Source: Sinomicrobium pectinilyticum
GTDB taxonomy: Bacteria; Bacteroidota; Bacteroidia; Flavobacteriales; Flavobacteriaceae
Length of the DNA stretch: 56,261 nucleotides
NCBI RefSeq assembly: GCF_003725735.1
Contig: NZ_RJTM01000091.1
Location: 1 to 56,261 of the forward strand
Reading direction: 5' to 3'
Shown in pieces: positions 4,955-34,648 of this stretch. Within the stretch, counting starts at the first letter, position 1, and the number at the start of each line of letters is the position of its first letter. Under the pieces are notes generated by a model that was given only the letters and a program-made list of their open reading frames with translations, searched no databases and was not told where the DNA came from. Made by a program: the position numbers and the translations under genes.

Positions 4955-5506
4955 TTATTCCGGATTACATACCTTGCAGTCATCCTGGTGCTCACCTACC
5001 AGGTACCCCCGTTCGTTCAATTTATAATCACAGCAATCCATATATCCGTATTGCAATAACTTTCGCCCCCTTTGTATGCGCGATTTGGCACCGGAGACGG
5101 AGATTTGCAATATTCCGGCAACTTCCGCCTGCTTTTTCCCCTGTATCTCACTGAGCAGCAAAGCCTCCCTGTATTTTTCCGGCAATTGGTCAATAAGAGG
5201 CAAAAGGCAGTCCCTTTCTGTCATTCCTTTCCCTGTTTCAGGTTCGGCAGATACGACATCTTCCGGAAATAACACTTCGGTCCTGCTTTTCCTGTAATAA
5301 TCAATGATTGCATTACGGGCAATCGCATATAACCACGATTTGAGTTTTGCCTCGTCCTCCAGGTCGCCCAGGCGAAGGTGTACTTTTGCAAAAACCTCCT
5401 GTAACAGGTCTTTCGCCGTTTCCGGATCATTGACCCTGTCACGGATATATGCTTTCATTTCACCGGAAAAGCGTTTCCATATTTCTGCTGTTTCCATAAT
5501 CTTCAA
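4955..5506 (-). CDS. sigZ: SigZ-type RNA polymerase sigma factor
   Basis: This is a 183-residue ECF-like sigma factor. Region 2 covers about 10-75 (DPETAKDLLQEVFAKVHLRL, then SWLYAIARNAIIDYYR). Region 4 covers about 105-152, with a helix-turn-helix (QAEVAGILQISVSGAKSRIQRGRKLL). The C-terminal tail holds C158, C159, H173, C177 and C180 (CC-x17-CxxC), the signature of the SigZ subfamily, which could bind a metal or sense thiols. ATG 5497 is an alternative start and gives the usual METAEIW beginning. A Cys-rich metallothionein-like gene lies 217 bp upstream on the same strand. No cognate anti-sigma factor is adjacent. Confidence 0.88.
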   Translation of the reverse strand: MKIMETAEIWKRFSGEMKAYIRDRVNDPETAKDLLQEVFAKVHLRLGDLEDEAKLKSWLYAIARNAIIDYYRKSRTEVLFPEDVVSAEPETGKGMTERDCLLPLIDQLPEKYREALLLSEIQGKKQAEVAGILQISVSGAKSRIQRGRKLLQYGYMDCCDYKLNERGYLVGEHQDDCKVCNPE

Positions 5507-5536: not shown

Positions 5537-5554
5537 TCCCGATAATTATCGGGA
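5537..5554. repeat. Perfect 18-bp palindrome, copy 2 of a dispersed family
   Basis: TCCCGATAATTATCGGGA is perfectly self-complementary and sits inside an outer CCTCG/CGAGG pair (5526-5530 and 5557-5561), so it could fold as a cruciform or long hairpin. It lies between the sigZ start and the metallothionein-like gene. Related copies are at 47-64 and 21677-21692. Confidence 0.65.
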
Positions 5555-5579
5555 CGCGAGGCATAAATCGGAAAAACCG

Positions 5580-5606: not shown

Positions 5607-5723
5607 GAGCATTTTAAATCTCACTTAGTGAGTAAAAAAGTCTCAATCATAAATTACCGGGAGTTGCTGGTGGTGACCACTGCAAAAAACTCCCGGCACT
5701 TTCTGTCTTTTGCCTCCTGCCTT

Positions 5724-5828
5724 CTAGCATTCGCAATGCGCACAGGTACAGTTTTCGCAGGTGCATTCCGGACAATGCCCTTCTTTACAGGATGTACACT
5801 GGCATTTACAATCTTGTATTGTTTCCAT
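5724..5828 (-). CDS. Metallothionein-like Cys-rich peptide (34 aa)
   Basis: On the minus strand, ATG at 5828 opens a 34-codon frame ending in TAG at 5724. The peptide begins METIQDCKCQCTSC and continues with CPECTCENCTC to end AHCEC. It has 11 cysteines (positions 7, 9, 11, 14, 19, 22, 24, 27, 29, 32, 34) and two histidines, in CxC and CxxC spacing with no aromatic residues. This is the composition of metallothioneins, small cytoplasmic proteins that bind zinc, copper or cadmium through thiolate clusters. It does not obviously match the known bacterial SmtA type. It sits between sigZ, whose tail is also cysteine-rich, and a divergent sigma factor operon with an HMA-like gene. It is easily missed because longer chance ORFs overlap it on both strands. 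Confidence 0.7.
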   Translation of the reverse strand: METIQDCKCQCTSCKEGHCPECTCENCTCAHCEC

Positions 5829-5914
5829 AGTATAGAATTTTCGATTACATTTATTAAGACGGAACATCCCCAGAAAAGACGCATTTTTTTCTCCTTTTTT
5901 CGGTTGTGGTTCCC

Positions 5915-6003: not shown

Positions 6004-6567
6004 ATGGATCAACAGGAAAAAAATATTGTCATACAACGGGTAACAATCTCCGAGGAAGGCAAATTGATCCACTTTCTGAAACAATGGATACCTAACAGGG
6101 AAGATGCCAGAGATATAGTACAGGATGTCTTTTACAACCTGGTGCTTGGCTTTGAAGAGATCCGGGACCTCGACAAAATTTCTTCCTGGCTTTACAGTAC
6201 AGCCAGGTTCAAGGCCATCGACTTTTTACGTAAAAAGAGGCCTACACCCGAATCCGACCTGGCGGGGCCTGCGGATACGGATGAGAACGAAACAAGTCTT
6301 TTCGAGTGGTTGCAGGAGCATATTCCGGCACACCAGGAGACTGAGATGTGGCAGGAAGAAGTATACCGGGTCCTGGAATACACCCTGGAGGCCCTTCCGG
6401 AGGAGCAGCGTGATGCCTTTGCCCTCCACGAACTGGAAGGTATCCCTATTGCAGAGATCGCCCGGAAACAGAACGTTTCGGTAAATACCGTCCTGTCCAG
6501 AAAACGATATGCCGTGGTCCGGCTTAAAAAAGAACTGCAACTTTTGTATAACGAATTAAATGATTGA
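6004..6567 (+). CDS. ECF-type sigma-70 family RNA polymerase sigma factor
   Basis: The 187-residue product has sigma region 2 at about 20-80 (WIPNREDARDIVQDVFYNLVLGF, SSWLYSTARFKAIDFLRKKR), an acidic linker (about 85-115) and region 4 at about 125-180 (LEALPEEQRDAFALHELEGIPIAEIARKQNVSVNTVLSRKRYAV). It directs RNA polymerase to alternative promoters. It heads a short operon with a membrane protein and an HMA-like protein, which suggests that one of them, or the membrane protein in particular, could act as its regulator (inference). Its own upstream region lacks a TAnnTTTG box, compatible with autoregulation. Confidence 0.88.
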   Translation: MDQQEKNIVIQRVTISEEGKLIHFLKQWIPNREDARDIVQDVFYNLVLGFEEIRDLDKISSWLYSTARFKAIDFLRKKRPTPESDLAGPADTDENETSLFEWLQEHIPAHQETEMWQEEVYRVLEYTLEALPEEQRDAFALHELEGIPIAEIARKQNVSVNTVLSRKRYAVVRLKKELQLLYNELND

Positions 6568-34559: not shown

Positions 34560-34648
34560 GTTTTTAAATATTTTTGAGGATGATTATGAATTAAGGCTTA
34601 TCCTTCGATAATCGTTAACTATCCCCGTTGTATAACTGATTAAATTAC

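Follow-up and report, generated by a model that had tools for sequence, protein, structure and literature searches.

The window, a stretch of 56,261 nucleotides from Sinomicrobium pectinilyticum, carries on its reverse strand a very short cysteine-rich frame followed by the gene for an extracytoplasmic function (ECF) sigma factor. The frame occupies positions 5724-5828(-), stop codon included, and its translation, METIQDCKCQCTSCKEGHCPECTCENCTCAHCEC and then a stop, comprises 34 residues, of which 11 (32%) are cysteine and two are histidine, with no phenylalanine, tryptophan or tyrosine. An initial annotation had given this frame, these coordinates and cysteines at positions 7, 9, 11, 14, 19, 22, 24, 27, 29, 32 and 34, all correctly. 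Upstream we predict a promoter of SigZ type, with a -35 element, TGCGTCTTTT, at 5874-5883(-) and a -10 element, CGTCTTA, at 5855-5861(-), and 13 bases between TGCGTCTTTT and GTC. Downstream, a hairpin with the stem CCGGGAGTT/AACTCCCGG lies at 5651-5702(-), between the peptide stop and sigZ (4955-5497(-)), which encodes a sigma factor of 180 residues assigned by its match to TIGR02959 and by structure search. We place the sigZ start at ATG 5497; the mechanical ORF begins at TTG 5506. Divergent from these genes, at 6004-6567(+), the window encodes another ECF sigma factor, one of a different type, which is kept at 82% identity in both congeners (L128, L129). Further along the window, positions 34582-34613(-) match the S4-Flavobacteria ribosomal protein leader above the Rfam gathering score.

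The peptide has the general features of a metallothionein, being short and about one-third cysteine, with CxC and CxxC spacing and few or no aromatic residues. Its composition had been described as far from chance, and in second-order Markov copies of the window the open 34-codon stretches indeed held no more than 8 cysteines, a maximum reached in 3 of 60 copies, against 11 in the peptide; in the window itself, with the peptide locus masked, the maximum was 7. Longer ORFs do overlap the gene as described, one of 76 residues on the same strand and one of 101 residues on the opposite strand, and neither stays open in the two peptide-bearing congeners (L066, L067), where stops interrupt both. The expectation that SmtA would not obviously match was borne out, as neither an SmtA-type model nor any other curated metallothionein model recognised the peptide. 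The window peptide had no match in Pfam (E 10), NCBIfam (E 1) or the sequences of the PDB (E 10), and its relatives had none in NCBIfam (E 10) or the PDB, in searches whose filters could mask very weak matches. A single Pfam match of a relative, to M20_dimer (E 0.49), was rejected as chance.

By BLAST, the peptide or a relative occurs in at least 38 of 299 family genomes, which were drawn evenly from a larger group and include the source genome. The count is a lower bound, because the search overlooked true 11-cysteine loci beside SigZ: when all 52 SigZ places that it had left unpaired were read, three carried the peptide (L075, L077 and L079). Within the genus, 3 of 6 genomes have the peptide, the source genome counted; two of the three congeners that do not have it are also devoid of a SigZ match, and the third falls outside the 299-genome draw. 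Scanned genome contigs contributed 22 loci, including Lacinutrix, Xanthomarina, Flavicella, Gelidibacter, Polaribacter, Tenacibaculum, Kordia, Lutibacter and Aureibaculum, together with one locus from the Saprospiraceae and two assigned just to Bacteroidetes or Bacteroidia. In wider draws at the levels of order, class and phylum, the 11-cysteine class was found in 6 of 296 and 5 of 395 genomes, all of the same family, and throughout this analysis the sigma-coupled peptide was met in Bacteroidota only. A plasmid search with one 11-cysteine peptide as query returned no match, under a low-complexity filter that may mask matches.

Relatives were expected to keep the cysteine pattern while other positions vary, and this is what we observed: across 29 aligned peptides (29 of the 30 fetched loci, the window included, with L012 omitted as a near copy of L004), all 11 cysteine columns are invariant, in a set retrieved by a homologue search that is itself biased toward cysteine-keeping sequences. 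The remaining columns comprise a near-invariant glycine and mostly variable positions. The codons point the same way. Over 55 distinct DNA versions, pairwise differences amount to 0.52 at third codon positions versus 0.24 at both first and second positions, as a constrained protein would predict, and TGT and TGC interchange at cysteine codons; these versions were chosen by their cysteine pattern, and at cysteine synonymous changes alone are informative. The metallothionein-like reading thus gains support from a frame and a cysteine spacing kept in relatives and from codon changes that reflect protein constraint. By these comparative criteria, the frame at 5724-5828(-) is a genuine gene.

The product of sigZ scores 172.7 and 172.3 bits against TIGR02959, above the cut-off of 168.65, and 186 bits against the second NCBIfam SigZ model, NF007215, below its cut-off of 212. 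Across the 299 family genomes, we found 84 SigZ-type places in 75 genomes at E <= 1e-28; because 7 of these 84 exceed the TIGR02959 cut-off and most fall below it, SigZ is used here in the sense of SigZ-like at this threshold. The predicted model of the window protein (mean pLDDT 88.4) has an ordinary ECF fold and agrees best in the PDB with other ECF factors, sigma H, SigW and sigma E among them; its matches also include the SigW/RsiW complex in zinc-binding and in oxidised form. The cysteines are Cys97, Cys155-Cys156, Cys174 and Cys177, the last four of which form a CC...CxxC arrangement within the final 26 residues. In the model, Cys97 sits at the start of the first sigma4 helix, where the linker between sigma2 and sigma4 joins sigma4; the CC pair closes the last helix, and the CxxC tail is modelled with low confidence (last block pLDDT 67). 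Among 97 distinct SigZ proteins, all 64 members of the CC...CxxC class retain Cys97, versus 20 of the 33 others; the class is defined by its four tail cysteines, which by themselves constitute no evidence.

A SigZ-type gene lies directly downstream of the peptide in 32 of the 38 peptide genomes, with the ends of the two matches 25-271 bases apart. Pairing follows the tail of the sigma factor. A peptide with 11 or 14 cysteines precedes 48 of 49 SigZ places with the CC...CxxC tail (34 and 14, respectively; the exception is L101) versus 1 of 33 with other tails, in counts that cover 49 and 33 of the 84 places, leave out L018 (contig end) and L092 (stops), and score L094 as having none despite its CC-rich peptide. 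At L052, another ORF intervenes and SigZ follows 693 bases on. The 6 matches in which SigZ is not directly downstream include four intact lone peptides with all 11 cysteines retained (genomes G221, G139, G062 and G272) and a decayed one, in G088, which has lost 3 of 11 cysteines. The sixth, a partial match of 20 residues in G216, is probably spurious, there being no cysteine-rich frame at that place. None of these six genomes, G088 among them, has a SigZ match at E <= 1e-28.

The 14-cysteine peptides, 37-41 residues long, form a second class with a different cysteine spacing and occur at 15 SigZ places, 14 of them with the CC...CxxC tail and the other being L113. A profile search found this class in 16 of the 299 genomes, 15 of them beside SigZ; the lone example, in G223, keeps all 14 cysteines, and that genome has no SigZ match. 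The two classes were never found together in one of the 299 genomes, and each precedes a separate SigZ clade. In a quick tree computed with the tail omitted, the partners of the 14-cysteine peptides and L101 form one clade (SH-aLRT 100), and the partners of the 11-cysteine peptides, together with L052, lie on the opposite side of a branch with support 93. From this tree, the many peptide-SigZ rows reduce to few independent events, and Fisher values computed on such related rows are not strict probabilities. At L092 (genome G188), stops interrupt sigZ and the peptide frame is shifted, with the promoter still recognisable; the two genes may have decayed together, or the assembly may be in error here. 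In G088, likewise, the lack of a SigZ match goes with a peptide that has lost cysteines. Functional linkage, over mere inheritance, is favoured by how nearly complete the pairing is inside each clade and by the shared decay at L092.

Beyond the family, the 14-cysteine class appeared in 3 of 295 genomes of a wider draw, in two other families, and the loci L218, L219 and L220 hold 14-cysteine-like orphans from two other families of the class with no SigZ match within the fetched 2-3 kb. The L220 orphan directly follows an AhpC gene and is also beside a ZIP transporter. A phage search with one 14-cysteine peptide as query gave no match, again under a low-complexity filter that may mask matches. 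Other cysteine-rich frames were seen before SigZ, namely CC-rich peptides of 59 and 58 residues at L094 and L097 and a frame of 26 residues at L080 that ends in CCGGGGCC; all three are preceded by a SigZ-type promoter and belong with another SigZ clade. At five SigZ loci from other groups (Priestia, Hymenobacter, Rhodococcus, Vibrio and Photobacterium), the 450 bases upstream encode no peptide of this kind, and 4 of these 5 proteins keep a cysteine near position 97, the CC pair and a C-x(1-3)-C tail.

The promoter motif of the window spans 5855-5883(-) and is the only zero-mismatch site of the search pattern in its own genome. Because the -10 element ends 26 bases before the peptide ATG, an in-frame upstream ATG at 5867 precedes the likely start of transcription. 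The ECF-type motif TGCATCTTTTT-N11-CGTCTA(TTA) lies upstream of 49 of 54 eleven-cysteine genes by best fixed-register score, and a strict pattern that allows three gap lengths recovers 48 of the 54, all with 13 bases from TGCATCTTTT to GTC; the distance from motif to ATG is mostly 25-30 bases. Its presence follows that of the sigma factor: the motif occurs in 48 of 48 eleven-cysteine loci with SigZ within 500 bases, as well as in L052, and in 0 of the 5 loci whose fetched sequence contains no downstream SigZ (L010, L030, L047, L121 and L122). In the 14-cysteine class, boxes of the TGTATCTTTTT-N12-GTCTAC type were found in 15 of 15 loci, 13 of them by the strict pattern. For 10 of the 33 SigZ genes outside the CC...CxxC class, the 330 bases upstream also contain a variant of the motif, placed before sigZ or before another cysteine-rich frame, against 0 of 1650 mononucleotide shuffles; the variant pattern was drawn after some of these upstream stretches had been read, and one of the ten sites, at L095, is far upstream and may be chance. 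A similar promoter-like stretch was seen by eye at the Hymenobacter plasmid SigZ. An ECF-type promoter placed before the sigma operon and tied to the presence of SigZ is, as predicted from sequence, the pattern of an autoregulated ECF factor.

A regulon beyond the operon was not detected in the 32 operon-bearing genomes, where the pattern with one mismatch matched 123 sites versus 108 for a reversed control; in 32 genomes where the peptide had no match, the corresponding numbers were 90 and 118. With zero mismatches, the operon-bearing genomes yielded 13 sites, 10 at the operon and 3 elsewhere, and the genomes without a peptide match yielded none, in a census that is incomplete, since several true operon sites escape the pattern or match it imperfectly. 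One of the three off-operon sites, in G131 (L211 5860-5889), precedes a Cation_efflux gene, itself downstream of efflux genes resembling CusB and AcrB, and lies about 17 bases before the ATG of the Cation_efflux gene, closer than usual. The others are in G681, with no clear target, and in G107, with no gene start close behind. A second site common to G053 and G273 was rejected, since it overlaps a gene start on the other strand and reflects conserved coding sequence of a MetRS-like gene (identified by eye). Among the one-mismatch sites, we also observed a recurrent different motif, TGTGACTTTTT...GTGTCTTA, at G000:C21:13984-14012 and in several genomes of the family, which is perhaps the promoter of another ECF factor.

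The spacer between peptide and sigZ is structured across the family. Of 62 distinct spacers, one only 4 bases long as cut, 58 fold at z < -2 with a median of -4.5 (100 dinucleotide shuffles each), and the window spacer has z = -3.5 (row L001). A long near-perfect stem is present in 51 of the 62, and in 49 of these the 12 bases after it include four or more T; in a shuffled control, the best of 8 shuffles gave such a stem in 8 of 62. The stem sequences vary between distant genera. The spacer of the window is longer, with several inverted repeats and a U run that is not clean. It also holds a perfect 16-base palindrome, CCCGATAATTATCGGG, at 5548-5563, and congener spacers carry other repeats. 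We read the hairpin as a putative terminator- or attenuator-like element, with partial termination yielding much peptide and little sigma factor; stabilisation of the mRNA is an alternative role. Taken together, the peptide, the promoter motif, the spacer hairpin and SigZ almost certainly constitute, by comparative sequence analysis, one conserved two-gene operon with the peptide gene first, a setting that the initial annotation had not recognised.

Few families of bacterial metallothioneins are known to us. The SmtA/BmtA proteins, which we take to be those described by Pfam Metallothio_Pro, are about 55 residues long and are controlled by the ArsR-type repressor SmtB. The window peptide resembles them in being small and cysteine-rich, in its CxC and CxxC spacing and as a presumed store of zinc or cadmium, and differs in its length of 34 residues, in the order of its cysteines and in its apparent control by a sigma factor instead of an ArsR-type repressor. 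Mycobacterial MymT is a small metallothionein in the RicR regulon, under a CsoR-type repressor (PMC10141476); the likeness lies in a small metallothionein gene within a dedicated metal-responsive regulon, as would apply to our peptide, and the difference in the regulator, a CsoR-type repressor there and an ECF factor of the same operon here. For the sigma factor, the nearest precedent is CorE of Myxococcus xanthus. CorE has an extension of 38 residues with 6 cysteines that is required for copper-dependent transcription (PMC3107203), a linker CxC described as essential (PMC8999054), and cuoB and copB as its targets (PMC3107203, PMC8999054). SigZ shares with CorE/CorE2 (ECF44/ECF238) the C-terminal cysteines and cysteine between or near sigma2 and sigma4. 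It differs in having CC...CxxC and one cysteine at the junction of linker and sigma4 instead of a six-cysteine extension and CxC, and its target, as far as visible, is its own operon in place of cuoB and copB. The linker of the window SigZ holds the single Cys97, invariant in the CC...CxxC class, and the CorE-type CxC is absent, so by the linker test SigZ is not CorE-like, although by analogy the arrangement is comparable. SigZ of Bacillus subtilis is given just as 'ECF', with no role, in one passage of PMC10141391. Within the open-licence literature, which makes for weak evidence, we found no paper linking SigZ with a metallothionein or a cysteine-rich peptide, and none in that literature on the role of SigZ.

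In this operon, a sigma factor that senses through cysteines probably controls a metallothionein-like peptide, and peptide and SigZ together resemble a self-contained system for answering metal or thiol stress. From its cysteine content and spacing, the peptide probably binds metal in the cell. By analogy with CorE, we give somewhat better than even chances to a full circuit in which SigZ is itself the sensor through its own cysteines. SigZ would act without a separate anti-sigma factor; Cys97, the CC pair and the CxxC pair would bind a thiophilic metal (zinc, cadmium or copper) or react to thiol stress, and their occupancy or reaction would switch the protein, as the cysteine-rich extension does in CorE. 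Active SigZ would then transcribe its own operon from TGCATCTTTTT-N11-CGTCTA. The hairpin would stop most transcripts after the peptide gene, leaving the peptide in excess, and a minority of read-through would renew SigZ. Finally, the peptide would fold round metal as a cysteine-thiolate cluster and lower the free metal, returning SigZ to rest.

The nature of the signal is where this circuit has its most serious competitor. The hints of metal are the Cation_efflux site of G131 and the 14-cysteine-like orphan beside a ZIP transporter in another family. No conserved metal gene appeared among the largest neighbour clusters of 69 wide loci and the window slice, which reflect lineage synteny only; the commonest neighbours include a methylmalonyl-CoA mutase, an Lrp/AsnC regulator and a protein of 131 residues. 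(This last protein, which has no significant Pfam match, occurs in 24 of 70 wide stretches, for example, at L200 9038-9433(-), and the Lrp/AsnC regulator is found in the same 24.) Because these links to metal genes are thin, redox stress is a real rival: the operon could answer oxidative or electrophile stress, with SigZ forming disulfides or losing zinc and the peptide serving as a sacrificial store of thiol or zinc. CC and CxxC pairs such as those of SigZ are typical of zinc-thiolate redox switches, and the orphan at L220 lies directly after an AhpC gene. Against this stand the regular CxC and CxxC spacing of 11 or 14 cysteines, the composition of a metal-cluster peptide rather than of redox pairs, and the one interpretable extra promoter site, which precedes a cation efflux gene. 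Neither is decisive, and we regard thiol stress as the unlikely, though still serious, answer.

It is less likely again that the peptide exists to regulate SigZ, as a minimal anti-sigma factor or a donor or acceptor of metal, and not mainly to store metal. Such a role would suit the almost perfect association between peptide and CC...CxxC tail (48 of 49 versus 1 of 33) and the way in which both peptide classes track SigZ clades. It sits poorly with intact peptides that have no SigZ (4 of the 6 unpaired matches, the one in G223 and the orphans of two other families) and with SigZ proteins that have no peptide, in other clades and at the five loci from other groups. The lone intact peptides and the orphans suggest a function for the peptide apart from SigZ. 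In addition, little of the peptide is conserved beyond the cysteines, the near-invariant glycine and some favoured polar residues, which leaves little surface for a specific protein contact. That the frame is merely a compositional accident or a repeat with no coding function might be supposed from its very short length, the longer ORFs that overlap it and the lack of a database family match; we give this negligible weight in view of the conserved frame, the codon-position bias over 55 DNA versions, the 11 cysteines against 8 or fewer in simulation, and the nearly constant distance between promoter and start.

Returning to the metal-responsive circuit, we consider the broadest form of this interpretation to have roughly even odds. 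The operon would be an undescribed, self-contained metal homeostat of the Bacteroidota, in which an ECF factor acts as the metal sensor through Cys97 and CC...CxxC. Acting at its own promoter, this factor would control the metallothionein-like peptide whose gene precedes sigZ, and a hairpin resembling a terminator would set the ratio of peptide to sigma factor. The 11- and 14-cysteine peptides would have arisen or diverged in separate SigZ clades, and the whole SigZ family, including its members in Vibrio and Rhodococcus, would be thiol- or metal-sensing. Genes as short as that of the peptide are easily overlooked in routine annotation; here a family of cysteine peptides was recognised by its conservation and tied to an ECF sigma factor. 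The near-minimal circuit of promoter, peptide, hairpin and sigma factor is a potentially useful reporter module, and this one operon raises two testable questions: to what signal SigZ responds, and whether a small cysteine tail can read metal without an anti-sigma factor.
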